64,000 bases of DNA from Desulfobulbaceae bacterium (GTDB lineage: Bacteria > Desulfobacterota > Desulfobulbia > Desulfobulbales > SURF-16): assembly GCA_020444175.1 (NCBI GenBank), contig JAHLLM010000002.1, positions 62,001-126,000 of the forward strand, read 5' to 3'. A program made the position numbers and the translations under genes. Below, piece by piece: positions 20,689 through 37,371 of this stretch; position 1 is the stretch's first letter, and each line of letters begins with the position of its first letter. The notes below the pieces were generated by a model. It did not search any database. It saw nothing but the letters and a program-made list of their open reading frames with translations, and was not told the origin of the DNA.

Positions 20689-21168
20689 ATGGGTGACACA
20701 TATAAAAAAAATCAGCCAAGTCGTTTCAGGGGCAGGTCCGAGCATGCTCTGGACGGCAAAGGAAGGCTCAATGTGCCGTCACGGTTCCGCGATGTCCTGC
20801 TGCGTGAATATGACGACAGGCTGATTATCACTCCTCCCTGGCCAAACTGTCTGCGCATATATCCTCTGCCTGAATGGGAGAAGCAGGAGTCGTCACTTCT
20901 GGGAATGGAGCAGAAGACACCGAAGGTTCAGAGGATGATCCGTTATCTTGTCGGCGGATCCGTTGAATGCCAGGTGGATAAAAATGGTCGAATTCTTCTT
21001 CCTGTCCAGCTTCGCAATCAACTGGATTTGAAAAAAGAAGTGGTCATGAACGGTATGCTCACCTTTTTTGAAATCTGGAGCAAGGAAGCCTGGGAGAAGG
21101 AAAGCATTGTCACTGAAGAGGATTTCAAGGATTTTGAGACGACTTTCAATGATTTAGGTCTTTACTAG
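20689..21168 (+). CDS. mraZ: Transcriptional regulator MraZ
   Basis: MraZ is a DNA-binding ring protein that controls the dcw operon. This product has 159 residues and the two AbrB-like halves of the family. The first contains the conserved opening ALDGKGRLNVPSRFRD, and the second contains VDKNGRILLPVQLRNQL. The ATG is preceded by a GAGG ribosome site and the operator repeats end eight bases before it. It starts the run of 14 division and wall genes on the plus strand, and its stop abuts rsmH. Confidence 0.95.
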   Translation: MGDTYKKNQPSRFRGRSEHALDGKGRLNVPSRFRDVLLREYDDRLIITPPWPNCLRIYPLPEWEKQESSLLGMEQKTPKVQRMIRYLVGGSVECQVDKNGRILLPVQLRNQLDLKKEVVMNGMLTFFEIWSKEAWEKESIVTEEDFKDFETTFNDLGLY

Positions 21169-22068
21169 GTGGTCGCTGTGAAACCGGTTCATCTCCCGGT
21201 TCTGTTGCAAGAAGTTATTCAGTTTCTTGCTCCTCAGGATGGCGGGCTTTACGTGGATGGGAATTTGGGACTCGGCGGACACAGTGGGGCCATACTGGAG
21301 GCAAGCAGTCCGGGCGGCAAGGTTATTGGTTTTGACTGGGATGAAGAGGCAATAGGTCAGGCCAGACATAACCTGGAGAAATATAAAGGCCGCATCGAGT
21401 TTGTCAGGCGAAATTTTGCCGAGATCAATGAAGTGCTGGATGAAATGGGGGTTTCTGGTGTTGACGGTATGCTTCTTGATCTCGGTCTTTCTTCTCTGCA
21501 GCTTGATACCAGTGGCCGCGGATTTTCTTTTCAGGGAGCTGAGCCCCTTGACATGCGCATGGATATCAGGGGTCACGAAACTGCGGCAGAGCTTCTGAAT
21601 AGGGCAAGTCAAGAGGATTTAGCCGATATTTTCTACTATTACGGCGAGGAGCGGCAGGCCAGGCGTATTGCCTCCCGTCTTGTTGCTGCCAGGAAACAGA
21701 CGCCTTTTGTGACAACGGATCAGTTGGTAAAAGTGGTGGAGGAGGCAGTGCCCCGTCGCTTCAGGCCCAAAAAGATCCATGTCGCCACAAAAGTTTTTCA
21801 GGCGCTCCGCATCGCCGTTAATCGTGAACTTGAGAATTTGGAAACCGTTCTTGCCTGCGCTGCTGATATCGTCAAGCCGGGTGGGCGTATATGTATCATT
21901 TCCTTCCACTCCTTGGAGGACCGTCTCGTGAAACGGGCTTTTCGTGATAATCAATTCCTTGACGTTCTAACCACAAAGCCGGTACAGGCGGCCAGTAGAG
22001 AGCTGCAAATCAATCCACGCGCAAGAAGTGCAAGGATGCGCGTAGCATCAGTCCGGGGGAAACAATGA
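21169..22068 (+). CDS. rsmH: 16S rRNA (cytosine1402-N4)-methyltransferase
   Basis: RsmH (MraW) methylates C1402 of 16S rRNA using S-adenosylmethionine. The 299-residue product shows HLPVLLQEV, the SAM-binding GLGGHSGAIL with FDWDEEA, LLDLGLSSLQLD and FHSLEDRLVKRAF, all typical. Translation may begin at the GTG at 21169 next to the mraZ stop, or at the GTG at 21178 that has AGGTGG five bases upstream; I give the longer frame. Its TGA overlaps the ftsL ATG. Confidence 0.95.
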   Translation: MVAVKPVHLPVLLQEVIQFLAPQDGGLYVDGNLGLGGHSGAILEASSPGGKVIGFDWDEEAIGQARHNLEKYKGRIEFVRRNFAEINEVLDEMGVSGVDGMLLDLGLSSLQLDTSGRGFSFQGAEPLDMRMDIRGHETAAELLNRASQEDLADIFYYYGEERQARRIASRLVAARKQTPFVTTDQLVKVVEEAVPRRFRPKKIHVATKVFQALRIAVNRELENLETVLACAADIVKPGGRICIISFHSLEDRLVKRAFRDNQFLDVLTTKPVQAASRELQINPRARSARMRVASVRGKQ

Positions 22069-22439
22069 TTACCGATTATTCACCTCGTTTTAAGGACTCT
22101 CCAAAAAGAATGCCGGGCAAACGCGGTCCTGGGCAGAAAATGACAATCGGTGAAGTATTCTGGAAATTGTCAGGGGTGCTCGTGATCTGCACAACGCTGA
22201 TTGGCTTGGCCGGAAGCTTCTGGTTTTCCTGGAAAATAAGAACTGGCCTGGATGATTTGTCTCGGGAGCAGGAGAGGCGCAAGAGCCTGCAGCAGATAAG
22301 TATGACTTTGCAGGAAGATGAAAAAAGGCTTTTTGATCAGAAACGTATCGAGAAAGTTGCTGCGGCAGAGCTGGAATTGTATGTGCCGTCACAAAAGTAT
22401 ATCGGAGGAGGCATAACCGTCAGGGTTCCGAAGCCATGA
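22065..22439 (+). CDS. ftsL: Cell division protein FtsL (divergent)
   Basis: This 124-residue bitopic protein has a basic cytoplasmic tail of about 35 residues, one membrane helix (about 37-58) and a periplasmic coiled-coil segment, which is the FtsL plan. Sequence conservation is low, as usual for FtsL, so the call depends on topology and position between rsmH and ftsI. It overlaps both neighbours by four bases (ATGA), which shows tight translational coupling. FtsL normally recruits and activates the FtsW-FtsI septal synthase, and that partner pair is abnormal here. Confidence 0.85.
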   Translation: MITDYSPRFKDSPKRMPGKRGPGQKMTIGEVFWKLSGVLVICTTLIGLAGSFWFSWKIRTGLDDLSREQERRKSLQQISMTLQEDEKRLFDQKRIEKVAAAELELYVPSQKYIGGGITVRVPKP

Positions 22440-24394
22440 TCAGGGACTGGTCAGTTCACAAAGAATATAAAAAAGAGCAGAAAAAGAAAAAAAGAAAAAT
22501 ATATCTGACCATTCTTGCTGTCCTTGTCATGGGGGGGGCTTACTTCTTCCTGGCACCCTTTTTTTTCAGGCCGACAGGAAAAGTTGAGGTCGGAAATGAG
22601 GAAGTAAAGGAGCAGAAGGCGCCGCGGCAAGTCAGTAATGAGGGGAAACGCAAAAAAATTTATGACCGCGATATGCGTGAGCTTGCAGTCAGTTTCAAGC
22701 TTAGTTCAGTTTATGTCAAGCCTCTTGAGTTCGACAACATAGAAAAAACCGTAAGTCTCCTGGCTGAAGTGCTGGGGCTTGACGAGAAATCCTTGTTGGA
22801 AGAGTTAAAGGCTCAGAGGAGTTTCAAGTGGCTTGCCGAAAATATTCAGGAAGAAAAAGTTCGCGAAATAGCTGATTTAAGTCTGTCCGGTGTTTATTTT
22901 TATGAGCAGCATAGTCGGTTTTACCCAGAGGGGGCCAGGGTGGCCAATATCATTGGCGAAGTAAAGGATGAGCAAGGGCTTTCGGGTATTGAGGCCTATT
23001 ATGACTCCTTTCTTCGCTATGACGCGGTAAAAAAGAGCGATAGTGAAGGGGAAATCGACAAAGGACTGGTTCTGACTCTGGACATGGAAATTCAGGGCCT
23101 TCTGGCAAAGCAGATGGGAAATCTGCACAAGGTGATAGAAACCGATGATAATGGTTTTGTTTTTGGAGATCAGACTGTGATTAATGCCCTGGTGATGGAT
23201 GTGACAAGTGGCGAAATACTGGCCTATGTGCAGTATCCATCAGCGGGGCATGGCGGATTGGGAGTCAAGGGTGAAAACGCGGGACGGGAATCATTGCTGA
23301 CAATGCCCGTGGATCCGGGCAGACTGAGCCTGCTTTTTAAAGTGGCGGATGCCTATAACAGAGGGGAGGCAGTCATTTCCGGAGAAGAGGATCTGCCGGG
23401 TGAGGTGAAATGGATCTACCCTCGTCATTTGAAAAAGATTGTCAAGAAACAAAAGTTGGTCCAGTGGGTGGAGGCAGGTGAAGGCAGCTACACCTCGCCC
23501 TGGTTGGCTCATGCTCTTCCGGCAATGGACGAGGAAGCCCTTGATGAGCAAAGTAAAGATTTTTCTGTGCAGGATTTTATCGATCAGGGTGTGTCATGCA
23601 GTGTCGATCTGCCGGGCAAAAATGGAGGGGGAGATACAGGACTTGGCTTGCTGTGCGGCATAACAGCGCTTGTTAATGGGGGAAAAAGTGTCAAGCCTCA
23701 TTTTCTAAAAGGCTTTTACACGGAAGATAACAAGCTGGAAGAACGGAAATGGCCTGCGCAGGAAAAAAAAATTGTTGAGCCGGAGGCAAGCCGGAAATTT
23801 GTTCGTTTTTTGCAGGAAGCCGTGGGCGGGACAAGTTCGGTGATGGTTGGAGAGGTTATCGTTCCACTGGGAACAGGACTGTTTCAGGAAGAAGAAAATC
23901 CCGAGAATCAAGGGGCCCAGGACGAGGAAAAGGCCAACCAGGTCATGGACAATTGCAGAGTTATTGTTCTTGCCGCAGCACCAGTAAAAAATCCGGAGCT
24001 TGCCATGGTTCTCAATGTGGAGCATGGCCGGGTTGACCTGGAAAATCCTTCGCCGTTCAAAGCGAAAAGTGAAGAATTCCTGAAAAAAGCAATCCGGTTG
24101 CATCGGCAAAAGAGCAGCAGCAGGACAAAGCATAAATACACAGTGGAGGATTACCGAAACTGGCTGTTTGAGCGGGAACAGTTGCCTGGAAGTGGGAAAA
24201 ACATAAAAAAAGCCAATGGCCGCATGCAGGATGTAAGAGGCTTGAGTCTGCGTAAGGCTCTGCAGATACTGGAACAAAACGATGTGAAAGTGATGATAGA
24301 GGGTTCCGGCAGGGTGAAGAGTCAATACCCTGCACCTGGAAGCAAGCTGGCAAAAGATACTGTGGTCGTTTTAAAGGCCGAAGTGGTGAAGTAA
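22436..24394 (+). CDS. ftsI: FtsI-position penicillin-binding-like protein with lost catalytic motifs and a PASTA domain
   Basis: This 652-residue protein has the FtsI layout: one membrane helix (about residues 23-43), a dimerisation domain with IYDRDMRELAVS and RFYPEGARVANIIGEV, a transpeptidase-like domain from about 215 (ALVMDVTSGEILAYVQYPS), and a C-terminal PASTA domain (about 600-652). The active site is gone. Where FtsI has Pro-Gly-Ser-x-x-Lys this protein has Pro-Gly-Arg296-Leu-Ser-Leu299. The KTG box reads Val-Pro-Leu478-Gly-Thr-Gly, and no SxN motif is found. Flanking residues remain alignable, so this is not a wrong frame. It should not bind penicillin covalently or cross-link peptidoglycan. 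A structural role in the divisome is inferred. Confidence 0.85.
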   Translation: MIRDWSVHKEYKKEQKKKKRKIYLTILAVLVMGGAYFFLAPFFFRPTGKVEVGNEEVKEQKAPRQVSNEGKRKKIYDRDMRELAVSFKLSSVYVKPLEFDNIEKTVSLLAEVLGLDEKSLLEELKAQRSFKWLAENIQEEKVREIADLSLSGVYFYEQHSRFYPEGARVANIIGEVKDEQGLSGIEAYYDSFLRYDAVKKSDSEGEIDKGLVLTLDMEIQGLLAKQMGNLHKVIETDDNGFVFGDQTVINALVMDVTSGEILAYVQYPSAGHGGLGVKGENAGRESLLTMPVDPGRLSLLFKVADAYNRGEAVISGEEDLPGEVKWIYPRHLKKIVKKQKLVQWVEAGEGSYTSPWLAHALPAMDEEALDEQSKDFSVQDFIDQGVSCSVDLPGKNGGGDTGLGLLCGITALVNGGKSVKPHFLKGFYTEDNKLEERKWPAQEKKIVEPEASRKFVRFLQEAVGGTSSVMVGEVIVPLGTGLFQEEENPENQGAQDEEKANQVMDNCRVIVLAAAPVKNPELAMVLNVEHGRVDLENPSPFKAKSEEFLKKAIRLHRQKSSSRTKHKYTVEDYRNWLFEREQLPGSGKNIKKANGRMQDVRGLSLRKALQILEQNDVKVMIEGSGRVKSQYPAPGSKLAKDTVVVLKAEVVK

Positions 24395-24397
24395 TTC

Positions 24398-26101
24398 ATG
24401 GGGTGCCGAAGAAAAAAAAGTCTCAATAGTCTGCTCACGGGACTTGACGTGTCTTGCGACGAGAACACGGGAGACATAGAAGTTTGCGGTGTGACTGCTG
24501 ATTCACGGCAGGTTCAGCCGGGCATGCTGTTTGTGGCTGTTGCCGGGCAGACAGTTGATGGGCATCGCTTCATTGCTGAGGCTGTGCAAAAAGGATGTCC
24601 CGCAGTGATGGCGTGCCGCGAGGCCGATGTGACGGTTGACGTTCCAGTTGTCAGGGCGGATGATACTGCGGCAATGCTCGGTTTTGTGGCCGGGGCTTTT
24701 TATGATCATCCCTGTAGGCAGTTGAGAATGATTGGAATCACGGGCACCAATGGCAAAACAACCAGCAGCTATCTGCTCGAAGAGGTGATTCAACACACTG
24801 GAGGGAAACCGGGGGTAATAGGGACGGTTTCTGTTCGCTACATGGGACATGAAACATTCGCCTCTCTGACAACTCCCCAGCCCGTCGAATTGCAGAGGAT
24901 TTTGCGTAAGATGTGTGAGAGCGGGGTGACTCATGTGGTTATGGAGGTGTCATCCCATGCCCTTGAGCAGCAGAGGGTCAATGGGATCTGGTTTGATGTG
25001 GTTCTTTTTACAAACCTGAGCCGTGATCACCTTGATTATCATGGCACAATGGAACGCTATTTTGCACAGAAAGAAAAACTTTTTTCCTTGCACCTGAAAG
25101 AAAAGGGCAAGGGAGTGATTGTTTTGAGTCAGAATGACAGCCAGGGTGAAGCAAATGTCGAATGGAGCCAAAGACTGGTTCAATTGCTGACAAAAAATAA
25201 TCGCCGTTTCTGGACCTGTGGAATCGGCAAGGGATTGGTCCAGGCCAGAAATTTCAAGTCGGATTTGGGCGGCATAAAGGCAGACATCATTACTCCTGAG
25301 GAACAGTGTCATTTAACAAGCAAACTGGTTGGCAGATTTAATCTTAAGAATCTGTTGGGGACAATTGGTTGTGCAGAGGCGCTGGGTCTGGATCTGGACA
25401 CCATCTGTCGGGGCTTGCGCCGGGCAGATGGTGTTCCCGGTCGAATGGAAAGGATTTTTTTACAGAAAAATGATGGGAAGAGCGAAGCTGACGTGGATGT
25501 TTTTGTGGATTACGCCCATACTCCTGACGCCCTGGAAAATGTGTTGCGCACCTTGAAGGAATTGAATCCGGTGCGGCTTGTTGTGGTCTTCGGCTGCGGC
25601 GGCGACCGTGACCAGGGTAAGCGCAGCCTCATGGGAGAGGTCGCAGCACGACTGGCGGATGTTGTTATTCTGACCACGGACAATTCAAGAACAGAGTCTC
25701 CCGTGAAAATCCTTGCGGAAATTGAGCAAGGGGTGAAGAAGGCCAATCTTGCTAAAGTCGCGGGGGAGCAACTCATGGAGAGCCCGGACCAGAACGGCTA
25801 CGATATTGTTGCGGACAGGGCGGAAGCAATCAGGATTGCGATTAGGCATGCTCAACCCGGTGATGTGGTGCTGATCAGTGGCAAAGGTCATGAAACCTAT
25901 CAGATTGCCGGTTCGAAGAAAGAGTTTTTTGATGATCGCGATCAGGCAAGAAAGCAGCTTGAAAAAAGAATGAAAGACCTGCTCTTGAAGAATGGAGAGT
26001 GCAAAAGACGGCAGGTACAATGTGAAGAGCAGAAAACAATGCTGGTAACGGCTCCGACCGGCATTGCATTTTGCGATCTATGTTCCGGCGAGGCCGGATA
26101 G
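24398..26101 (+). CDS. murE: UDP-N-acetylmuramoyl-tripeptide synthetase MurE
   Basis: MurE adds the third peptide residue to UDP-MurNAc-L-Ala-D-Glu using ATP. The 567-residue product shows VTADSRQV, the ATP loop GTNGKTT, TTPQP, MEVSSHAL, NLSRDHLDYHGTMERY and the substrate-specificity motif DNSR. The usual motif for meso-diaminopimelate is DNPR, so the substrate is probably meso-diaminopimelate with one change. The protein has a tail of about 40 residues beyond the normal end, rich in Lys, Arg and Cys, with no recognised domain. It starts three bases after the ftsI stop. Confidence 0.95.
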   Translation: MGCRRKKSLNSLLTGLDVSCDENTGDIEVCGVTADSRQVQPGMLFVAVAGQTVDGHRFIAEAVQKGCPAVMACREADVTVDVPVVRADDTAAMLGFVAGAFYDHPCRQLRMIGITGTNGKTTSSYLLEEVIQHTGGKPGVIGTVSVRYMGHETFASLTTPQPVELQRILRKMCESGVTHVVMEVSSHALEQQRVNGIWFDVVLFTNLSRDHLDYHGTMERYFAQKEKLFSLHLKEKGKGVIVLSQNDSQGEANVEWSQRLVQLLTKNNRRFWTCGIGKGLVQARNFKSDLGGIKADIITPEEQCHLTSKLVGRFNLKNLLGTIGCAEALGLDLDTICRGLRRADGVPGRMERIFLQKNDGKSEADVDVFVDYAHTPDALENVLRTLKELNPVRLVVVFGCGGDRDQGKRSLMGEVAARLADVVILTTDNSRTESPVKILAEIEQGVKKANLAKVAGEQLMESPDQNGYDIVADRAEAIRIAIRHAQPGDVVLISGKGHETYQIAGSKKEFFDDRDQARKQLEKRMKDLLLKNGECKRRQVQCEEQKTMLVTAPTGIAFCDLCSGEAG

Positions 26102-26112
26102 GAGAAAGGATC

Positions 26113-27603
26113 ATGCAGTTAATACAATGTACACGAAGTGACGAGTACAGGCCGATGAATGGTCGAACGGCTAACGATTTCGGTTACGGTTTTAACACGA
26201 TACAGGATCCCGTATGGACACTCAGTCAGGTTTTGCTTGCTACAGGGGGTCGCTTGATTTCAGGTAAGACAGAGGCAAAGTTCAGGACAATCTCAACCGA
26301 TACACGCACCCTGGAGCCGGGTGATCTTTTTCTTGCCCTGTCCGGTGACCGCTTTGACGGGCAGCAGTTTGTTGAAGAAGCTATCGAAAAAGGAGCTGCC
26401 GGACTGATCATCGGTGAAATGCTGGAAGCCGATCTGCCGTTGCCGGTCATTCTTGTAGAAGATCCCCTGCATGCACTTGGCGATCTGGCTGCGTACCGCA
26501 GAGGCTTGATGGATAACCTGCAGCTCATTGCCATAACCGGTAGTTCGGGAAAAACCACGGTCAAGGAAATGTGCAGCGCCATTTTGGCGGAAGAATATAA
26601 CGTTTTAAAAACAGAAGGAAATTTTAATAATCTTATCGGCATGCCCCTGTCGTTGCTCAAGGTTGATTCCCGGCACGATGTAGCAGTACTCGAAATGGGA
26701 ATGAATCGTGCCGGCGAGATAGCCAGAATGGCGGAAATTGCAGATCCTGATATTGCCTGTATCGTCAATATTCAGGGAGCCCATCTTGCCGGGCTTAATT
26801 CCGTCGATGGAGTGGCAAAAGCCAAAGGCGAACTTTTTAAAGGACTGAAATCCTGGTCAAAAATCTGTGTCAATGTTGATGATAAAAGGGTACGGGCTCT
26901 GGCCCGTAAATTCAGCCAGGGGCAAATTAGTTTTGGCCGCAGCAAAAATGCCTTTGTAAGGGCGACCCATATCCGCAATCTCGGGGAAGAGGGGATGCTT
27001 TTTACTCTGCATGTCGGACGGGAAAAAGTGCGTATTCAGATACGCAGTTTTGGAGAACATAATGTCACAAATTCACTTGCTGCCGCGGCAATGGCCGTTG
27101 CTGTCGGTGTGAAGATTGAGCAGATAGCCAGAGGACTTATTCGATTTTCACCATTTGATAAAAGGATGCAGATTGAGGATGTGAAGGGGTTCAAGATCGT
27201 TAATGACAGTTACAACGCTAATCCTTGTTCCATGTTCGCCGCCCTTGATACGGTGAGCGCCATGAAAAAAATACATAAGTCCGTGGCAATCCTGGGGGAT
27301 ATGCTTGAGCTGGGAGATGAGAGTTGTAAAGCCCATCGTCGACTTGGAGAAACAGTGGCCTGCAAGGAATTTGACTATCTTTTTGCCTATGGCGAATTTT
27401 CAAGAAAGGTAGTGGAGGGTGCTCTTGACGCAAAGATGTCAATAAAGCAGGCCCGGCAGGTTGAGGTAAAAGAAAAAATAGTTGAAGAAATTGTCAAACT
27501 AGTCGGGCTTGGAGAATTAAAGGCGGGTGATTTTTTACTGGTAAAAGGGTCGCGGGGCATGCGCATGGAAACAATAATTGAACAGCTGAAAAGCGCTCTG
27601 TAA
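26113..27603 (+). CDS. murF: UDP-N-acetylmuramoyl-tripeptide--D-Ala-D-Ala ligase MurF
   Basis: MurF joins D-alanyl-D-alanine to the UDP-MurNAc tripeptide. The 496-residue protein contains the ATP loop GSSGKTTVKEM, NNLIGMPLSLL, EMGMNRAGEI and the C-terminal NDSYNANPCSM motif diagnostic of MurF. The ATG at 26113 has GGAGAAAGG upstream and is preferred over the TTG at 26071, which would overlap murE. The first 35 residues are poorly conserved. The ddl gene that makes its dipeptide substrate is not in this cluster. Confidence 0.95.
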   Translation: MQLIQCTRSDEYRPMNGRTANDFGYGFNTIQDPVWTLSQVLLATGGRLISGKTEAKFRTISTDTRTLEPGDLFLALSGDRFDGQQFVEEAIEKGAAGLIIGEMLEADLPLPVILVEDPLHALGDLAAYRRGLMDNLQLIAITGSSGKTTVKEMCSAILAEEYNVLKTEGNFNNLIGMPLSLLKVDSRHDVAVLEMGMNRAGEIARMAEIADPDIACIVNIQGAHLAGLNSVDGVAKAKGELFKGLKSWSKICVNVDDKRVRALARKFSQGQISFGRSKNAFVRATHIRNLGEEGMLFTLHVGREKVRIQIRSFGEHNVTNSLAAAAMAVAVGVKIEQIARGLIRFSPFDKRMQIEDVKGFKIVNDSYNANPCSMFAALDTVSAMKKIHKSVAILGDMLELGDESCKAHRRLGETVACKEFDYLFAYGEFSRKVVEGALDAKMSIKQARQVEVKEKIVEEIVKLVGLGELKAGDFLLVKGSRGMRMETIIEQLKSAL

Positions 27604-27612
27604 CCGGCGAAC

Positions 27613-28692
27613 ATGCTCTACCATTTTCTCTATCCACTCCACAACCTGTTTGGCGGGTTTAATGTATTCAGGTACATCACATTCCGGTGTATCGGGGCCA
27701 TTGTAACAGGGTTTCTGCTGGCTGTTATTCTTGGGCCGAAATTTATTCGGTTCATGCAGCGCCATCAACTGGGGCAGGTGGTAAGAGAAGATGGGCCGGA
27801 ATCCCATTTCAGCAAGCGAGGCGTGCCGACAATGGGAGGGGTGCTCATTATATCAACAGTGACCTTTTCAACGCTGCTCTGGGTCGATCTGACAAATATA
27901 TTTGTCTGGCTGATTCTGGCGATCACCCTCTGGTATGCTGGAATAGGAAGTATTGATGATTACTGGAAAATAAAAAAGAAAAACTCGAAAGGTCTCAGTG
28001 CCAGAGGAAAGATGGCGCTGCAGATTGCCGGAGTAGCAGTTGTCGGTGGGATTTTACTGAATCAGCCTGGTTTTGATACCACGCTGAGTTTTCCATTTTT
28101 AAAGGACGTTAAACCCGAGCTTGGCGTTTATTACATTTTGTTTATGGTGCTTGTTGTTGCAGGAGCCTCCAATGCCGTGAACCTGACGGATGGTCTGGAC
28201 GGTCTGGCAACCGGTCCCACGGTTGTCACCAGTGGAGTTTATATTCTCTTTTCCTATCTGGCCGGGCATGCCGGGCTGGCAGCATATTTACAGATTCCGT
28301 ATGTGCCCGGCGCCGGGGAAGTGACTGTTTTCTGCGGAGCTTTAGCCGGGGCAAGCCTTGGTTTCCTCTGGTTTAATACCTTTCCAGCCCAGGTCTTCAT
28401 GGGTGACGTGGGATCCCTTGCCATAGGAGGAGCCCTTGGCGTTGTCGCAGTCATAATAAAGCAGGAGATACTGCTGGTCCTGGTGGGTGGAGTTTTTGTC
28501 ATGGAAGCACTGTCCGTCATATTGCAGGTGGGGTATTTCAAGGTTTCCGGTGGCAAAAGAATATTTCTCATGGCCCCCTTTCATCATCACTTTGAGAAGA
28601 AAGGATGGGAAGAACCGAAAGTTGTTGTTCGTTTCTGGATTGTATCGATAATCCTGGGGCTTATGGCTCTGGCTACATTGAAGCTGAGATAA
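27613..28692 (+). CDS. mraY: Phospho-N-acetylmuramoyl-pentapeptide transferase MraY
   Basis: MraY makes lipid I by moving phospho-MurNAc-pentapeptide to undecaprenyl phosphate at the inner membrane. The 359-residue protein has about ten helices and the catalytic signatures: the DD pair in [25 protein letters not shown] and the HHH motif in APFHHHFE. All invariant acidic residues are present. The spacing of nine bases after murF and seven bases before murD fits a single operon. Confidence 0.97.
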
Positions 28693-28699
28693 TTCGGCA

Positions 28700-30088
28700 A
28701 TGAACGGCCTGGATCTCTTAAAGCATGATCCGTCCTCCTGCAAAACAGTTGTTGTGGGGTCGGGAAAGTCAGGTTTTGCAGCGTTGAAGTTGCTGCACCG
28801 AATGGGCAGCCCTGTTTTTTTAAGTGACAAAGCGGATAAGTCAACGTTGAGGCCGGAGTTTTTGGCATGGCTCGAAACAAACAAGGTGCCGTATGAAACA
28901 GGCGGTCATGGTGAAAGGAAATTTCTGGATGCTGATTTGATTGTGGTCAGTCCGGGGGTTCCTCTTGATCTGAACGTTTTGGACTCTGCCGGCAAGCAAG
29001 GAGTTACGATAATCGGGGAGATGGGACTTGCCGCTTTTTTTCTGGATATCCCGGTTGTCGCCGTAACCGGAACCAACGGCAAAACAACGGTAACGGAATT
29101 GATCGGCACGCTGATAAAGGCTTCAGGAAGAAAAGTTTTTGTCGGGGGCAACATAGGAACACCGCTTGCCGAGTATCTTTTAGGTGACGAAAAAGCTGAA
29201 ATAGCAGTGCTTGAGGTGAGCAGTTATCAGCTTGATACCGGGAGACAGTTTAAACCGCGAGTGGCACTGCTGTTAAATATCAGTCCGGACCATCTTGACC
29301 GGTATCCATCATACGCCGCCTACGCAGATTCGAAAATGGCAATATTTGCCAACCAGGATGGCGAGGATGCAGCCATCTTGAACTGTAATGACGTGGAAAC
29401 TATGAAGCGTCTGTCAGGTGCGAGAGTGGCGGCGAGAAAATGTTTTTTCGGATGTAAGGATGAAGGGGTTGCCGGAGCAAAGATTATCGATAAAAAAGTG
29501 GAGATTCTGGGAATAGGCAGGGAAAAAGAGGTGTACCGATTGCCTGATGACTTGAAAGATTCGCCTAATTGTGAAAACGCCATGGCCGCACTCCTTGCTG
29601 CCAGACTGGTGGGCTGCCCGCCAAAAAAATTAGAAACAGGGCTTGCCTCTTTTCACAGGCTTCCTCACAGACTGACCAAAGTAGCGGAAGTCGATGGGGT
29701 AACGTATTACGATGATTCAAAAGCAACAAATATCGGGGCAGTAATATCAGCGTTAAACGGCATGGAGAAACCCGTTGTACTCATAGCCGGCGGAAGGGAT
29801 AAAGGTGGCGATTACGCCATATTGAAAAAGAGTGTTGGCCGGCAGGTCAAGAAAATGCTGCTTATCGGTGAGGCAAGTGAAAAAATGGCCTCTGCCCTTG
29901 GGCAGGTAACTGAAGTAGAGAAAGTTGAAAGTCTTGAAGAGGCAGTGACAAAAGCAGCCCAGACTGCAGAAAGCGGAGATGTTGTTCTCCTGTCTCCAGC
30001 GTGTGCCAGTTTTGATATGTTTAAAAGCTATGAGGAGCGCGGAAATAGGTTTCAGAAAGCGGTTTTGAGTTTGAAGAGTGTGTGTTGA
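28700..30088 (+). CDS. murD: UDP-N-acetylmuramoyl-L-alanine--D-glutamate ligase MurD
   Basis: MurD adds D-glutamate to UDP-MurNAc-L-alanine. The 462-residue product shows the N-terminal Rossmann start VVVGSGKSGFAALKLL, the ATP loop GTNGKTTVTEL, VSSYQLD, NISPDHLDRY and the C-terminal HRLPHRLTKV and DDSKATN motifs. It is complete. In most dcw clusters ftsW follows murD, but here the next genes are a small zinc-ribbon gene and then murG. Confidence 0.97.
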   Translation: MNGLDLLKHDPSSCKTVVVGSGKSGFAALKLLHRMGSPVFLSDKADKSTLRPEFLAWLETNKVPYETGGHGERKFLDADLIVVSPGVPLDLNVLDSAGKQGVTIIGEMGLAAFFLDIPVVAVTGTNGKTTVTELIGTLIKASGRKVFVGGNIGTPLAEYLLGDEKAEIAVLEVSSYQLDTGRQFKPRVALLLNISPDHLDRYPSYAAYADSKMAIFANQDGEDAAILNCNDVETMKRLSGARVAARKCFFGCKDEGVAGAKIIDKKVEILGIGREKEVYRLPDDLKDSPNCENAMAALLAARLVGCPPKKLETGLASFHRLPHRLTKVAEVDGVTYYDDSKATNIGAVISALNGMEKPVVLIAGGRDKGGDYAILKKSVGRQVKKMLLIGEASEKMASALGQVTEVEKVESLEEAVTKAAQTAESGDVVLLSPACASFDMFKSYEERGNRFQKAVLSLKSVC

Positions 30089-30156
30089 TAGAGAGTTTGT
30101 AACTGAGGAATGTTTTTTTTATTCAGATAAAAAAATGACCAATTGAGATAAAAAAA

Positions 30157-30339
30157 ATGGAAAAGGTATGTTGTCGTTGCATGAAAAACGAAAAAGAAGG
30201 CAAATGGGTTCCTGTAGAAGAAGGTGATTATAAAGATTTTTCATACGGCTTCTGTCCTCAGTGTTATCAGGAGACATTGGCGGAAATAAAAATAGCGACG
30301 AAACATCGTTACCGAAAGGCCGCTGAGTTACGAGTTTGA
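30157..30339 (+). CDS. Small zinc-ribbon-like protein in the ftsW position
   Basis: This 60-residue open frame has two cysteine pairs, Cys5-Cys6-x-x-(Cys8) and Cys38-x-x-Cys41 (MEKVCCRCMKN and FCPQCYQ), that could bind one zinc ion. A WVPVEEGDY segment lies between them and a basic tail (KHRYRKAAELRV) follows. The start ATG has only a weak GAG-type site upstream. It lies 68 bases after murD and 12 bases before murG, where ftsW is expected. Small proteins of this type recur in Desulfobacterota but I do not know a function. Nucleic acid or protein binding is possible. Confidence 0.65.
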   Translation: MEKVCCRCMKNEKEGKWVPVEEGDYKDFSYGFCPQCYQETLAEIKIATKHRYRKAAELRV

Positions 30340-30351
30340 AACTGAACCTGT

Positions 30352-31455
30352 ATGGGGCAGAGAATAATCAAACTCATGGTCAGCGGAGGAGGAACCGGAG
30401 GGCATCTCTTCCCCGGCATTGCGGTGGCCGAAGCGCTTCTTGAGACCAGGCCGGACAGCAAAGTGCTTTTTGTCGGCACAGACAGGCATACTGATAAACA
30501 CGTTCTGGCGCATAGGGACTTCAAGCGGGCGACAGTGAACTGCCAGGGATTAATGGGCAAGACATTGATTGAGAAGATAAGAAGTCTCATACAGTTGCCT
30601 CTGGCAGTTGTTGCCTCAGCTCGATTGATCAGGGAATTTAAGCCGGATCTTGTTATGGGTGTCGGCGGCTATGTTACAGGGCCGGTCCTGCTCGCTGCAA
30701 AAATATTAAGGGTGCCGACCTGTATTCACGAACAGAATTCGGTACCGGGAATGGCAAACAGGAAACTGGGCAGTTTTGTTGACCGGGTTTTTCTGTCTTT
30801 GCCGGGCAGTGAGAAGTATTTTTCTGAAAAAAAATGCGTGTTGACAGGCAATCCAGTACGGAAGGAAATTGTCGCTGCTGCAGGAAAAAGCAAAGAGCCG
30901 CAAACAGGACTCACCCTGCTTGTCATTGGCGGAAGTCTTGGGGCACATCGGGTGAATACCTTGATACTTGAAGCAATGGCTGTCTTGGAAAATCCGCCAC
31001 CGGATTTCAAGGTAATTCATCAGACCGGAGCGGCTGATGAGCAGTTTGTGAGAAACGGCTATGAAGAACTGGGGATCATGGCTGAGGTGAGCGCTTTTTT
31101 TGAAAATATGGCAGATTTGTATAAGAAGGCTGATATCGTAGTGTCGAGAGCAGGTGCCACATCCCTTGCCGAGATGACTGTTTTTGGTCTGCCGATGATT
31201 CTCATTCCGTTTCCGTATGCTGCCGATGATCACCAACAGAAAAACGGGGAGTATCTGGTCCGGGGCGGTGCTGCAAGAATGATCAGAGAAAAGGAGCTGG
31301 ACGGCGAGCAGCTGGCTGAAGAAATTTTAAATTTGATGAGTGATAAGAAGAAACGCCGGGAGATGGCGCTAGCTGCTGCGGAACTGGCAAGGCCGAATGC
31401 CACCATGGAAATATTGAAAGAGTGTGGAAAACTCATAGGCAAAAGCATTCTTTGA
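30352..31455 (+). CDS. murG: UDP-N-acetylglucosamine--lipid I N-acetylglucosaminyltransferase MurG
   Basis: MurG converts lipid I to lipid II on the cytoplasmic face of the membrane. The 367-residue GT28 enzyme has the GGTGGHLFPG donor loop, GVGGYVTGPVLLAA, HEQNSVPGMANR, GGSLGAHRVN and SRAGATSLAEM signatures, all intact. Lipid II supply therefore appears complete even though the septal polymerase gene ftsW is absent beside it. Confidence 0.97.
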   Translation: MGQRIIKLMVSGGGTGGHLFPGIAVAEALLETRPDSKVLFVGTDRHTDKHVLAHRDFKRATVNCQGLMGKTLIEKIRSLIQLPLAVVASARLIREFKPDLVMGVGGYVTGPVLLAAKILRVPTCIHEQNSVPGMANRKLGSFVDRVFLSLPGSEKYFSEKKCVLTGNPVRKEIVAAAGKSKEPQTGLTLLVIGGSLGAHRVNTLILEAMAVLENPPPDFKVIHQTGAADEQFVRNGYEELGIMAEVSAFFENMADLYKKADIVVSRAGATSLAEMTVFGLPMILIPFPYAADDHQQKNGEYLVRGGAARMIREKELDGEQLAEEILNLMSDKKKRREMALAAAELARPNATMEILKECGKLIGKSIL

Positions 31456-31540
31456 GTTTTATGGAGAGTCTGGCAGATTAACGGCAAGCAGGCCGAGAAA
31501 GAAAGTGTTGAGCGATATTTCAAGGCGAATAAAGTGAAAA

Positions 31541-32932
31541 ATGTATAAAAAAACAAAACAAATACATTTCGTCGGTATAGGCGGCATAGGTATGAGCGGC
31601 ATAGCTGAACTCCTGCTTAACCTCGGCTATGCGGTAAGCGGGTCTGATCTGCGGTCCACTGAGACGACGAAAAGACTTGAGAGCCTGGGGGCCATTGTCT
31701 GTCAGGGGCATAAGGATACCTGCATCGGTGAAGCCGATGTGGTTGTCATATCGTCGGCAATAAAAGATGACAACCCTGAAATCATTGCTGCTCGGGAATC
31801 GTTTATCCCCGTAATTCCGCGGGCTGAGATGCTGGCCGAGCTGATGCGGTTAAAAAAATATGGCATTGCCGTTGCCGGCAGCCACGGCAAGACATCTACC
31901 ACCTCCCTTGTTGGAAGTATTCTTGCCGAGGCAGGTCTTGATCCAACAGTGGTCATCGGCGGCAAGGTCAACAGTCTGGGCAGTAATGCCAAACTGGGAG
32001 AAGGGGAATTCCTGGTGGCCGAGGCGGATGAAAGCGACGGTTCCTTTCTGCAATTGTCTCCGGTGGTTGAAGTGGTCACTAATATAGATCTGGAGCATCT
32101 TGATTATTATAATGATATTGATGCAATAAAAGATGTCTTTCTTGAATTCATCAACAAGATACCATTTTACGGGGCCGCTGTTGTCTGCCTTGATGATGCA
32201 AATATTGCATCTCTTTTGCCGCACATTAAAAAAAGAGTGATCACCTATGGCCTGTCAGCCCAGGCCGATCTGTCTGGCAGGCAATTGTCCACCAGCGGGC
32301 TGGAGAGTAAGTTTGAAGTCTGTTTTGGGGGCAACGTTCTTGGTGAAATCACATTAACTTCTCCAGGAAGGCATAATGTGCTGAACAGTCTGGCCTCGAT
32401 AGCCGTCGGGCTGGAGCTCGAAATCCCTTTTCCTGTCATTGCCCGGGCGCTTGCAAAATTTGAAGGGGTTCAGCGGCGTCTGCAGATAAAAGGTGAAACT
32501 GACAATATAACTATTATTGACGATTACGGGCATCACCCAACGGAAATCAGAGCAACACTTTCCGCCTTGCGTGATGCCTGGCCGAGCAGGCGGCTCGTTG
32601 TTCTCTTTCAGCCCCACCGCTATACCCGCACACAGGGCCTGTTTAATGAGTTTTGTACCGCATTTCATGATGCGGATATCCTGATGCTGACCGAGATTTA
32701 TCCTGCCAGTGAATCTCCAATTCCCGGGGTAACGGCTGAAAATTTAGCAGCAGGGATAAAAGAACATGGGCAGCGGCAGGTTTTTGTTGTGGAGAAAATA
32801 GAAGACCTGGTTGACGAGGTGTTGCCGATGCTGGAAAAAGACGACATTGTTCTGACCTTGGGGGCCGGGAATATATGGAGAGCCGGAGAGCAGTTATTGG
32901 TAAAGTTGTCGGAGAGAAAAACTGGAGGTTGA
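31541..32932 (+). CDS. murC: UDP-N-acetylmuramate--L-alanine ligase MurC
   Basis: MurC adds L-alanine to UDP-MurNAc. The 463-residue protein begins with the Rossmann motif [14 protein letters not shown] and carries the ATP loop [17 protein letters not shown] and [10 protein letters not shown]. It is full length and not fused to ddl, unlike some members. An 85-base gap separates it from murG, the largest mur-to-mur gap here, and could hold a minor promoter. Confidence 0.97.
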
Positions 32933-32936
32933 GAAA

Positions 32937-33941
32937 ATGCATGGAGGGATGCAGTTTACCAGACAGTACCGTCAAATAATGACACCGATAGGAAGTTCAT
33001 CTGATAATCTGCCTCATTGGGCTGGGGTGTTCAATGATGAAATGGCTGATTTCTGGAGTGGTGAAGTTGTCTGGAATGGCTGCATGGCAGAGTATACGAC
33101 CCTCAAGGTGGGTGGAAATGCTGATGCCATAGTTTTTCCGATGGGCAGAAATGAACTGTCACTTCTGATCCAGGGAGTGCGCAAGATTAATGTCACCTGG
33201 ATCATCCTCGGCAAAGGAAGCAATGTTCTTGTTCCGGATGAAGGAATCAGAGGGGTGGTTATTGTTCTCGGCCGGAATTTTGCTGAAATAGAAAGAATAA
33301 AAAGCAACAATGATTCTGTGAGTGTCAGAGTGGAAGCAGGGTGCAGTCTGGCGAGCCTGGTTAAATGGGCCACAAAGCACGGTCTGTCAGGCCTTGAGTT
33401 CGCGTCAGGCATACCCGGGACCGTAGGCGGTGCAATTGTCATGAATGCCGGAGCCTGGCAGCGGGAAATGAAGGATGTCCTGTCCCAGGTTACCATTATG
33501 GATGTCAGGGGATGTTTTCGCGCTACCAAAGCGAAAGATATGGATTTTACGTACAGATCCTGGGGGCAGGGCAGAGGGAAGGTTGCTGTGGAAGGAGTTT
33601 TTCAGCTCAAAAAGGATGATCCGGGCAGGGTGAGCGAAAGATGCAAGGAATATATCAGGCTTCGCAAGGAACGGCAGCCGTACAAGATGGCAAGTGCCGG
33701 ATCTTTCTTTAAAAATCCTAAAGACAGCGAGCCGGCTGGAAAATTGATTGAAGATGCCGGCTTGAAGGGTTTAAAAGTCGGCGGGGCCATGGTGTCGCCG
33801 ATACATGCAAATTTTATAGTAAACACAGGAAAAGCGACAGCCAGGGATATTATAGAGTTAATGCATGTGGTGCAGGAGAAAGTACAGAAAAAATTCGGTG
33901 TTGGGCTGGAACCTGAAGTGAAAATTCTGGGAGGAGCGTGA
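32937..33941 (+). CDS. murB: UDP-N-acetylenolpyruvoylglucosamine reductase MurB
   Basis: MurB is an FAD enzyme that reduces the enolpyruvyl group to make UDP-MurNAc. The 334-residue protein has the FAD-binding pattern TTLKVGGNADAIVFP, LGKGSNVLV, ASGIPGTVGGAIVMNAGA and the catalytic serine segment ASAGSFFKNP, with LIEDAGLKG and HANFIVN near the end. This is the type II form. Its TGA overlaps the ftsQ GTG (GTGA). The first 20 residues are not conserved and an ATG at 32949 is an alternative start. Confidence 0.95.
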   Translation: MHGGMQFTRQYRQIMTPIGSSSDNLPHWAGVFNDEMADFWSGEVVWNGCMAEYTTLKVGGNADAIVFPMGRNELSLLIQGVRKINVTWIILGKGSNVLVPDEGIRGVVIVLGRNFAEIERIKSNNDSVSVRVEAGCSLASLVKWATKHGLSGLEFASGIPGTVGGAIVMNAGAWQREMKDVLSQVTIMDVRGCFRATKAKDMDFTYRSWGQGRGKVAVEGVFQLKKDDPGRVSERCKEYIRLRKERQPYKMASAGSFFKNPKDSEPAGKLIEDAGLKGLKVGGAMVSPIHANFIVNTGKATARDIIELMHVVQEKVQKKFGVGLEPEVKILGGA

Positions 33942-34756
33942 AAAAAAAACAAAAAAGCATGCGTGTCTTCCAGACCAGAAAAGAGAGTTGGTTTGGGGAT
34001 CATCTTCTGAAAATGGGGACAATGGGTCTTGCTGTTTTTTTTTCAGTCTTGCTGGTACTTTTTATAAGCTACCAGGGGTTAAGTCGTTCGGTTTTCTTCC
34101 AGATCGAAAAAGTAGATATTAAAGGGTGTAAACGCACGACTCCAGCGGAAATTCTGGCCTGGAGCGGATTGGATATTCAGACAAATTTATGGACGATCCG
34201 TACAGGCAGGCTCAAAGAAAAACTTGAGGCTGATCCCTGGATTGCCCGGGCTGAAATTGACAAAAACTGGCCAAACAGGGTTGCCATCAGGATTCGAGAG
34301 AGAAAAGCCGTGGCAATTCTAAGTAAGGAGCAGGGTCTCTTTTTTGTTGACAGGAAGGGAGTTGTTTTTGCAGAGGTACTGGCGACTGATGATCATGACT
34401 ATCCGATTATCACGGTGGGACAGGAGCAGGCAGAGAAGGAGACGACTGAGATGATGGAGGAGGCCTTGGCTTTCATCAGGTTTGCCGGAGATGGATCTGC
34501 TGCTGCACCAAAACAGAATGTATCGGAAATACATCTTGCCGAAAATGGCGATTTGACAGTGTTCATGGCGGACCATCCGGTGCCGATTTCCATGGGTCGG
34601 GGAGAGGTCAGAAAAAAGTACCATATGTTGAGCAAGGTTCTTTCCTGGCTTTACAGGAAAGAAAAATTTGAAGCTGCGACATCTATTGATATGAATTATA
34701 TGGCAGGCCATGAAACTGTTGCAGACAAGAGCAGCATGGTTATGGTTCGATTTTAA
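33938..34756 (+). CDS. ftsQ: Cell division protein FtsQ
   Basis: FtsQ is a bitopic divisome protein that links early and late division proteins. The 272-residue product has a basic cytoplasmic tail, one helix (about residues 26-48) and a POTRA domain beginning at FQIEKVDIKGCKRTT, followed by the FtsQ beta domain with IRIRERKAVAI and DRKGVVF. It starts at a GTG that overlaps the murB stop, with GGAGG just upstream (GGGAGGAGC). Position before ftsA supports the call. Confidence 0.92.
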   Translation: MKKKQKSMRVFQTRKESWFGDHLLKMGTMGLAVFFSVLLVLFISYQGLSRSVFFQIEKVDIKGCKRTTPAEILAWSGLDIQTNLWTIRTGRLKEKLEADPWIARAEIDKNWPNRVAIRIRERKAVAILSKEQGLFFVDRKGVVFAEVLATDDHDYPIITVGQEQAEKETTEMMEEALAFIRFAGDGSAAAPKQNVSEIHLAENGDLTVFMADHPVPISMGRGEVRKKYHMLSKVLSWLYRKEKFEAATSIDMNYMAGHETVADKSSMVMVRF

Positions 34757-34869
34757 CAGGCTGCTGAACAATGGAAAATATTCAGCCAGGCCCAGGCTGG
34801 TTCAGGCGAAAGACGGAATTCCGGCGGTAAAGCCGGCTTGAGTAGTATCGGGTTACATTGAGGGAGAGT

Positions 34870-36102
34870 ATGGCTCATCAGGAAAGGGGCAAATTGGTAG
34901 TAGGCCTTGATATCGGAACAACAAAAATCTGTGCCGTAGTGGGAGAAGTATTTGAAAACCGCGTTGACATCATCGGTGTTGGCGCTCATCCTTCCATCGG
35001 TATGCGGAAAGGTGTTGTTGTCAATATTGAGAGTACTGTCAATTCGATAAAAAATGCAATAGCCGAAGCGGAGATGATGGCTGGCTGCGATATATCGTCA
35101 GTGTATGTCGGTATTGCCGGAAGTCACGTAAGCGGCCAGAACAGTGATGGAGTCATTGCCATTAAGAACAGGGAAATTCGGCAGGACGATATTGAAAAAG
35201 TTGTTGAAAATGCCAAAGCCGTTCCCCTTGGACAGGATCAGGAAGTCATTCATGTGTTGCCCCAGCAGTTCAGAGTGGATGGGCAGGGCGGTATCCAGGA
35301 TCCTCTCGGCATGACAGGTGTCCGTCTTGAGGCGGAGGTGCATATTGTCACAGGTTCCGTGACAGCAGTGCATAACATTATTAAGTGTTGTAACAGGGCC
35401 GGACTTGAAGTGGATGATGTGGTTCTTGAGCCCATTGCCTCTGCCGAAGCCGTGTTGACTCCCGAAGAAATGGAGCTTGGTGTCGCTTTGATTGATATCG
35501 GCGGTGGAACCTCTGATCTTGCCGTGTTTTCGGAGAACTGCATTCAGCGCACCTATGTGCTGGGTATTGGCGGGCATAATCTGACTAATGATCTGTCCAT
35601 CGGTCTCAGGACACCCATGAAAGAGGCTGAACGGCTCAAGGAAAAATATGGCTGCGCAATTTCCGCAATGATTAACAAGGATCAGGCAATTGAGGTGCCA
35701 AGCGTGGGCGGTAGGAAATCGAGGCGACTTTCCCAGCGAGTTATGGGGGAGATACTCGAACCCAGGGTTGAAGAGATGCTCTCTCTGATTAACCATGAGT
35801 TGGTTAATTCCGGCGTAAAATCAATAGTGAATGCCGGTATTGTCATGACTGGGGGAACCTCGATGCTTGCCAATATGCTTGATCTGAGTGAGCAGATTTT
35901 TGATCTTCCGGTTCGCATAGGCTACCCAAGGAATATCGGGGGCGTGACAGACATTGTCAACACCCCGCAATGTGCCACTGGAGTCGGTCTGGTCATCTAT
36001 GGAATGAAAAGCGAGGGAGGACGAAGTTTCCACCAGCGCAGTGATGGCGGAATTGGCGGACTGGCCAGGAAAATTAAGGGCTTGTTTGGAAAAATTATGT
36101 AG
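34870..36102 (+). CDS. ftsA: Cell division protein FtsA
   Basis: FtsA is the actin-like ATPase that anchors FtsZ to the membrane. The protein of 410 residues has the phosphate-1 motif VGLDIGTTKICAVVGEV, the SHV segment of the 1C domain, IDIGGGTSDLAVF (phosphate 2), GGTSML, and a C-terminal amphipathic helix (GLARKIKGLFGKIM) that serves as the membrane anchor. I use the ATG at 34870; a TTG at 34858 is in frame. The 113-base gap after ftsQ contains short GC-rich hairpins and may hold a promoter. Confidence 0.96.
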   Translation: MAHQERGKLVVGLDIGTTKICAVVGEVFENRVDIIGVGAHPSIGMRKGVVVNIESTVNSIKNAIAEAEMMAGCDISSVYVGIAGSHVSGQNSDGVIAIKNREIRQDDIEKVVENAKAVPLGQDQEVIHVLPQQFRVDGQGGIQDPLGMTGVRLEAEVHIVTGSVTAVHNIIKCCNRAGLEVDDVVLEPIASAEAVLTPEEMELGVALIDIGGGTSDLAVFSENCIQRTYVLGIGGHNLTNDLSIGLRTPMKEAERLKEKYGCAISAMINKDQAIEVPSVGGRKSRRLSQRVMGEILEPRVEEMLSLINHELVNSGVKSIVNAGIVMTGGTSMLANMLDLSEQIFDLPVRIGYPRNIGGVTDIVNTPQCATGVGLVIYGMKSEGGRSFHQRSDGGIGGLARKIKGLFGKIM

Positions 36103-36186
36103 AGCTGATGCAGGTTTAGTTGTACTATAGAAGGTAGTTTGAGTCAGGCCGGAAAGTGGCCTGGCGCATCTGGATAGGGGGTATAT

Positions 36187-37371
36187 ATGGAGTTCAAAAT
36201 GGCAGAAGACTCATCACGAGCTAACATCAAAGTGTTTGGTGTCGGTGGCGGCGGCGGAAATGCAGTCAATACCATGGTCGAGAACAGGCTCCTTGGTGTC
36301 GAATTTATTGCGGCAAATACAGATTTGCAGGCTTTGGATCATTCCAAAGCTGATGTGAAACTGCAATTGGGGCCAGGCATCAGTAAAGGACTTGGGGCAG
36401 GGGCAAACCCTGAGCGGGGCCGGGAATCCGCTGAGGAGAGCCTGGACGCGATACGTGAATGCCTGAAGGGAAGTGACATGGTGTTTGTGACCGCAGGTCT
36501 CGGCGGCGGAACAGGAACAGGCGCTGCGCCCATTGTCGCCAAGGTAAGCAAGGAACTCGGCGCACTCACCGTGGCTGTCGTCACAAAGCCTTTTGTCTTT
36601 GAGGGCAAGGCACGTATGAAGAATGCCGAAAACGGTTGGGAACAGCTTAAAAAGCATGCAGATACGATTATTACTATCCCCAATGATCGAATCCTGTCCC
36701 TGACCCAGAAAAACACCAAGTTTCTTGACGGCATGAAGATGGCGGACAACGTTCTTGTCCAGGCGGTCAAGGGAATCACTGATCTGATTAATCTGCCGGG
36801 TTACATTAACCCTGATTTTGCGGATGTGCGCACGGTTATGAACGAGATGGGCCCGGCCTTAATGGGAGCAGGTTTCAGCGTGGGTGAAAACAGAGCCACT
36901 GAAGCCGTTAATATGGCCATTGCAAGTCCGCTTCTCCAGGATATCAGTATCGATGGCGCCAAGGGTGTGCTGGTCAATATCTCGGCAAGAGAAGATACGC
37001 TGACCATGGCTGAAGTTACCGAGGCTACCAGTAAAATTTACGAAGAAGTGCATGATGACGCAAATATCATTCTGGGCGTTATTTTTGATGATTCACTGGG
37101 CGAGGAACTGCGGGTGACTGTTGTAGCAACCGGTATCAGGGTTGAAGAAGAAATGGAACCCCTGCCTGAGAAGGTGACTCCCATCATGAAAAAACAACCT
37201 GAAACTTCAACTGCCAGTCCGACATTGCCCTTTGGCGAGGAAAAGGTACAGAAAGCCGCAAACGATAGCGATCCAGGCAATAATACGTCGCGGCGCAGGC
37301 CTTATTCAATTAATTTTTTTAATGAAGATGAACTTGATGAGCCAACTTTCATCAGGAGAAATGAAAACTGA
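36187..37371 (+). CDS. ftsZ: Cell division protein FtsZ
   Basis: FtsZ is the tubulin-like GTPase that forms the division ring. The 394-residue protein has FGVGGGGGNAVN, the GTP loop GGGTGTGAAP, NPDFADVRTVM for the T7 loop, and a variable linker followed by a conserved C-terminal peptide ending DEPTFIRR, which binds FtsA. All GTPase residues are present. The 84-base gap before it may hold an extra promoter, as is common for ftsZ. Confidence 0.97.
   Translation: MEFKMAEDSSRANIKVFGVGGGGGNAVNTMVENRLLGVEFIAANTDLQALDHSKADVKLQLGPGISKGLGAGANPERGRESAEESLDAIRECLKGSDMVFVTAGLGGGTGTGAAPIVAKVSKELGALTVAVVTKPFVFEGKARMKNAENGWEQLKKHADTIITIPNDRILSLTQKNTKFLDGMKMADNVLVQAVKGITDLINLPGYINPDFADVRTVMNEMGPALMGAGFSVGENRATEAVNMAIASPLLQDISIDGAKGVLVNISAREDTLTMAEVTEATSKIYEEVHDDANIILGVIFDDSLGEELRVTVVATGIRVEEEMEPLPEKVTPIMKKQPETSTASPTLPFGEEKVQKAANDSDPGNNTSRRRPYSINFFNEDELDEPTFIRRNEN

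Follow-up and report, generated by a model that had tools for sequence, protein, structure and literature searches.

Class-wide absence of ftsW in Desulfobulbia is coupled to an FtsI that lacks its transpeptidase motifs

The usual view of FtsW-FtsI is that all bacteria rely on it to synthesise septal peptidoglycan. Here we report that the loss of ftsW is class-wide in Desulfobulbia, including the cable bacteria, and that it is accompanied, in every dcw cluster compared, by an FtsI homologue from which the catalytic motifs have disappeared. The only SEDS protein left in the genome under study is RodA.

The window is a stretch of 64,000 nt (G000:C28:62001-126000) from the draft genome of a Desulfobulbaceae bacterium (5.42 Mb, 90 contigs, 100% complete, 1.6% contamination). 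Apart from the place of ftsW, it carries a full dcw cluster at 20689-37371, in the order mraZ-mraW-ftsL-ftsI-murE-murF-mraY-murD-[60-aa ORF]-murG-murC-murB-ftsQ-ftsA-ftsZ (Table 1), so that FtsL, FtsQ, FtsA and FtsZ are all encoded. The original prediction held that murD and murG are intact and that ftsW is missing from its site between them, and this is what we found: the 263 nt that separate the two genes hold a single ORF. This ORF has no Pfam or NCBIfam match. It was ruled out as a remnant of ftsW, being short, Cys-rich and soluble-looking and without similarity. Homologues of 57-80 aa occupy the murD-murG site in many families of the class and are absent from others. From its sequence, the ORF perhaps encodes a small protein that binds zinc and has come to occupy the former ftsW site.

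Table 1. Features of the dcw cluster in the window
Feature	Position	Strand	Basis
mraZ, first dcw gene	20689..21168	+	translation, position, gene order
mraW (rsmH)	21169..22068	+	translation; orthologues at the same place in relatives
ftsL	22065..22439	+	Pfam FtsL, E 1.8e-4, 21.9 bits, slightly below the 22.9 cut-off
ftsI, predicted transpeptidase-dead: transmembrane helix, pedestal (PBP_dimer), eroded transpeptidase fold, PASTA	22436..24394	+	domain search, motifs, AlphaFold2, Foldseek
murE	24398..26101	+	translation
murF	26071..27603	+	translation
mraY	27613..28692	+	translation
murD, intact	28700..30088	+	translation and domain search
gap at the ftsW place of relatives, 263 nt, no trace of ftsW	30089..30351	+	comparison with relatives
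60-aa Cys-rich ORF (CCxC...SYGFCPxC)	30157..30339	+	homologues between murD and murG in some of the class
murG, intact	30352..31455	+	translation and domain search
murC	31541..32932	+	translation
murB	32937..33941	+	translation
ftsQ (POTRA and FtsQ/DivIB C-terminal domain)	33938..34756	+	domain search
ftsA	34858..36102	+	translation
ftsZ	36187..37371	+	translation

A search of the whole genome with the PF01098 profile returned one SEDS protein (G000 C9:10047-11159). It scored 413.6 bits against TIGR02210 (RodA; cut-off 336.7) and 292.7 bits against TIGR02614 (FtsW), under the cut-off of 337.5. Its gene lies on contig 9 in the arrangement mreB-mreC-mreD-PBP2-rodA. Equivalog, tree and PBP2/mreBCD neighbours agree that this single SEDS protein is RodA, and PF01098 search, equivalogs and tree gave no FtsW-clade SEDS anywhere in the genome. 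PF00905 matched four class A penicillin-binding proteins (PBPs), each with both domains, as well as PBP2 and the FtsI remnant of the dcw cluster. PBP2 is intact (TIGR03423, 722 bits; PGSTYK and KTGT present), and the PF00905 search of the genome yielded neither a second class B enzyme nor a spare FtsI. The genome-wide count that had been proposed as a check therefore stands at one SEDS protein, RodA, and one intact class B PBP, PBP2, with no canonical ftsW and intact class B partner elsewhere. The accompanying suggestion that another dedicated SEDS/class B pair replaces FtsW-FtsI was not borne out, since only the RodA-PBP2 pair of the rod operon remains. The genome also encodes a second full-length MreB-like protein outside the mreBCD operon (G000:C41:2767-3741, E 8e-128).

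The product of the window ftsI is identified as an FtsI homologue by its place between ftsL and murE and by its N-terminal transmembrane helix and PBP_dimer/pedestal. Pfam domains comprise PBP_dimer, PASTA and a transpeptidase remnant of only 25.8 bits. As predicted, the active site is missing: the SxxK position reads DPGRLSL, compared with EPGSTFK in families that keep ftsW, and the KTG (KTGT) motif is absent when the protein is aligned with its relatives. No SxN was seen at the aligned place, where the automatic alignment of the eroded domain is unreliable, and the assignment of FtsI as dead is therefore based on SxxK and KTG. An AlphaFold2 model (mean pLDDT 75.5, pTM 0.68) keeps the class B PBP layout, and its best Foldseek matches in the PDB were SpoVD, PBP3 and PBP2x (E 1e-24 to 3e-25). 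The window FtsI thus has its overall fold, dcw position and pedestal in common with canonical FtsI/PBP3 and SpoVD (PDB 4kqo, 7rcz), but it differs from them in having neither SxxK nor KTG and in its eroded transpeptidase domain. Judged by these motifs, the protein is an FtsI homologue that is predicted not to be a transpeptidase.

The distribution of conservation along FtsI points in the same direction. Where ftsW is kept, no part of FtsI is more conserved than the transpeptidase domain (mean pairwise identity 0.49, with 0.38 for the pedestal and 0.31 for PASTA). In FtsI of the class, the corresponding values are 0.23, 0.38 and 0.39, and both pedestal and PASTA contain invariant residues. This pattern suggests that selection holds FtsI for its pedestal and PASTA domains and not for catalysis. 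A narrower scan with a pattern from the FtsI alignment gave seven loci, two of them with organism names inside the class.

To define the extent of the loss, 160 genomes of the class, each at least 90% complete, were searched for SEDS proteins. SEDS proteins were present in 157, and about 152 of these 157 (counted from the table) had exactly one; the few genomes with two include broken genes and one genome with 8% contamination. Clusters were compared in 40 class genomes from 15 families, plus the window. Both murD and murG were present in 33 of the class loci, and in every one of these they are neighbours, at a spacing of -206 to +362 nt, as they are in the window, so that the ftsW-less arrangement proposed for comparison in close relatives is common to all examined class clusters. 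SxxK and KTG were missing from 41 of 41 FtsI proteins (the 40 and the window), and in the same 41 genomes ftsI is an intact ORF in its usual place. Neither SEDS nor PBP2 was found in three class genomes (G057, G083 and G156). We do not take these as proof that RodA is dispensable; because the adjoining hemH is absent too, a missing contig is the likelier cause. In one single-contig genome of the class (G031, L182:7156-8288), rodA is split by a frameshift, which is either a sequencing error or a real loss.

Most genomes in the rest of the phylum encode two SEDS proteins, and all 30 ftsW loci fetched there lie inside the dcw cluster, beside murD. In four single-SEDS families (f27, f31, f88 and f107) the survivor is FtsW, encoded in the dcw cluster together with an intact FtsI. 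The survivor is RodA in f26, f32, f35, f36, f52, f57, f58, f64, f69, f70, f81, f85, f93 and f109; f100 has RodA without PBP2 on the piece compared. In the tree, a split with support 1.0 separates FtsW from all the single SEDS proteins found in ftsW-less genomes, and the neighbours of the latter are PBP2/mreC. In the RodA-survivor families outside the class, murD adjoins murG in 23/23 loci carrying both genes and the ORF at the ftsI position has neither SxxK nor KTG in 24/24 dcw loci. Both motifs were present in all 14 FtsI proteins checked from families that keep ftsW. No exception to this coupling, in either direction, was found among the dcw clusters examined. The idea that the two absences are a matched loss, first put forward for the window, is supported for the whole class and for about 14 other families.

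FtsI of the ftsW-less families varies widely in size, the ORF at the ftsI position being 643, 585, 555, 545, 514, 455, 385 or about 250-340 aa long. The 643-aa protein of f26 has a still recognisable transpeptidase fold (E 5e-29), with LGELAG instead of PGSxxK. In the shortest proteins, whose domains were judged with profiles built from longer ones, the pedestal is kept in f35 and f36, and only PASTA behind the transmembrane helix in f32 and f57. One f57 genome (G360, L277) showed two SEDS matches despite an ftsW-less dcw cluster and a 343-aa FtsI stub. Two further observations concern other genes of ftsW-less families. An ORF of about 980-1020 aa that matches MurE, with no separate murF, occurs at L256, L257, L259, L262, L263, L264 and L265; by its sequence, this ORF looks like a MurE-MurF fusion in f81, f109, f85, f70, f58 and f100. 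The open frame of RodA measures 1014 aa in f64 (L292) and 514 aa in f85 (L291), which suggests that RodA is fused or extended in these two families.

A phylogeny built from seven dcw enzymes, concatenated, divided the ftsW-less genomes into three groups, namely the class with 16 genomes of 11 families, f26, and f57 with f32. Constraining all of them to a single clade cost 61 log units and was not rejected (AU p 0.07), nor was the grouping of f26 with the main clade (AU p 0.64). Since the AU tests allow one clade, we do not claim independent losses from the three groups. The data are compatible with one to three losses of ftsW, and the co-loss is therefore not countable as three independent events.

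With no FtsW and a dead FtsI, the division wall must be built in some other way. The explanation that we favour, at a probability of roughly 0.52, is that after an ancestral loss of ftsW and of FtsI activity the septum is made mainly by class A PBPs, perhaps with RodA-PBP2, while FtsI serves as a non-catalytic part of the divisome. The ancestor of Desulfobulbia (and of allied clades in the phylum) would have lost ftsW, and the dcw FtsI its transpeptidase activity along with it, with either order of events. FtsI would have been kept for its divisome role, its transmembrane/pedestal and PASTA parts conserved and its transpeptidase domain decayed or deleted. Most of the septal peptidoglycan would then be polymerised and cross-linked by class A PBPs, which FtsQ/FtsL/FtsB and what is left of FtsI would recruit and which RodA-PBP2 would possibly help at the septum, and the PASTA domain of FtsI may bind nascent peptidoglycan or the synthase.

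Class A PBPs are favoured because Clostridioides difficile, the characterised case of a bacterium that has no vegetative FtsW/FtsI pair, divides with one (PMC10693644), and because FtsBLQ of E. coli binds PBP1b directly, contact with PBP3 being mainly through FtsW (PMC6325244). The vegetative divisome of C. difficile, driven by the class A enzyme PBP1 (PMC10693644), likewise works without a canonical FtsW/FtsI pair, and in both cases RodA-PBP2 is left for elongation and the divisome proteins FtsQLB persist. The two differ in the fate of the SEDS/class B pair encoded in the dcw cluster: C. difficile has an active pair (SpoVE/SpoVD) that has been repurposed for sporulation, whereas Desulfobulbia, a Gram-negative clade, have lost the SEDS gene and retain a catalytically dead class B protein. 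The window genome resembles C. difficile in having no FtsW/FtsI pair for vegetative division; on the class A side, it encodes four such PBPs.

Contig 89 of the window genome encodes a class A PBP of about 1100 aa (G000, L121:1541-4870) with an insert of about 300 aa between SxN and KTGT of its transpeptidase domain. This protein was found in nearly all class genomes checked, with 56% mean column identity in the class. As a candidate for the replacement it was rejected: it is also present in f29, f39 and f72, which keep ftsW, and was not found in thermophile-like ftsW-less families, and it is therefore not a general replacement.

Double duty of RodA-PBP2 ranks close behind class A PBPs, as a possible but more tentative reading. 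The sole SEDS/class B pair would serve both the Rod complex and the divisome, and FtsI would act as an adaptor that brings divisome regulators. Consistent with this, nearly all ftsW-less genomes whose locus is assembled keep RodA-PBP2, and the pair is catalytically intact in each one examined, PBP2 having its catalytic serine and RodA its conserved Asp; every genome except the three with a probable missing contig keeps at least one SEDS protein; and genomes that combine a sole SEDS protein with an intact FtsI have FtsW, encoded in the dcw cluster, as that protein. At RodA-specific sites, RodA has also drifted in genomes without ftsW (0.58-0.73 RodA-like compared with 0.93), a comparison that is biased by the choice of sites on RodA of ftsW-keeping genomes. 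However, the RodA-PBP2 genes remain in the mreBCD operon, an elongasome context, in nearly all cases, and the residues of RodA in the class have not turned FtsW-like (0.00).

As for FtsI itself, we think it rather probable that it works without catalysis throughout the class, with pedestal and PASTA connecting FtsQLB to a synthase other than FtsW, either as a scaffold or as a sensor of peptidoglycan. If so, the structural role of FtsI has been separated from its enzymatic one, and in some lineages the protein has been pared to a transmembrane-PASTA or a pedestal-only form. The truncation to about 250-340 aa in two lineages, with different halves kept, would fit an FtsI that is an inert relic decaying to nothing while the other divisome proteins persist. 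We consider this unlikely: in the class, pedestal and PASTA equal those of active FtsI in conservation and each has invariant residues, and ftsI is intact and in place in all class genomes compared, which neutral decay over a class would not produce. That the absence of ftsW is an artefact, whether of gaps in the assembly, of contamination or of an FtsW too diverged for the profile, is very improbable, even though the window genome is in 90 contigs and three class genomes lack even RodA. The dcw genes of the window are contiguous, and single-contig genomes (e.g. G024) have the same arrangement; in the window and in 56 relatives the assembly covers the ftsW site and shows it to be empty, and PF01098 recovers ftsW from other members of the phylum with scores of up to 405 bits.

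Parts of this loss have been seen before. The available text of one study notes the absence of ftsW in four Desulfobulbaceae of the same class as the window, two cable bacteria and two Desulfobulbus species (PMC7873302); that text treats FtsI as a normal divisome member and mentions neither a missing active site nor a class-wide extent. A synteny survey records in one clause that the dcw cluster of Thermodesulfobacteria, a related lineage, has lost the same gene (PMC8871954), with nothing on FtsI. No report of a matched FtsI decay or an inactive FtsI was found in the literature searched, a body that excludes most subscription journals. What is new here is the extent of the loss, the identity of the remaining SEDS protein as RodA and the finding that the loss is strictly coupled to an FtsI that is dead and eroding.

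Collectively, Desulfobulbia and about 14 further families, dividing without FtsW-FtsI, and showing FtsI at successive steps of decay, constitute a natural experiment for telling the structural parts of the divisome from the enzymatic ones. The clade includes cultured species with complete genomes, and the question of which enzyme builds their septum is therefore directly testable.
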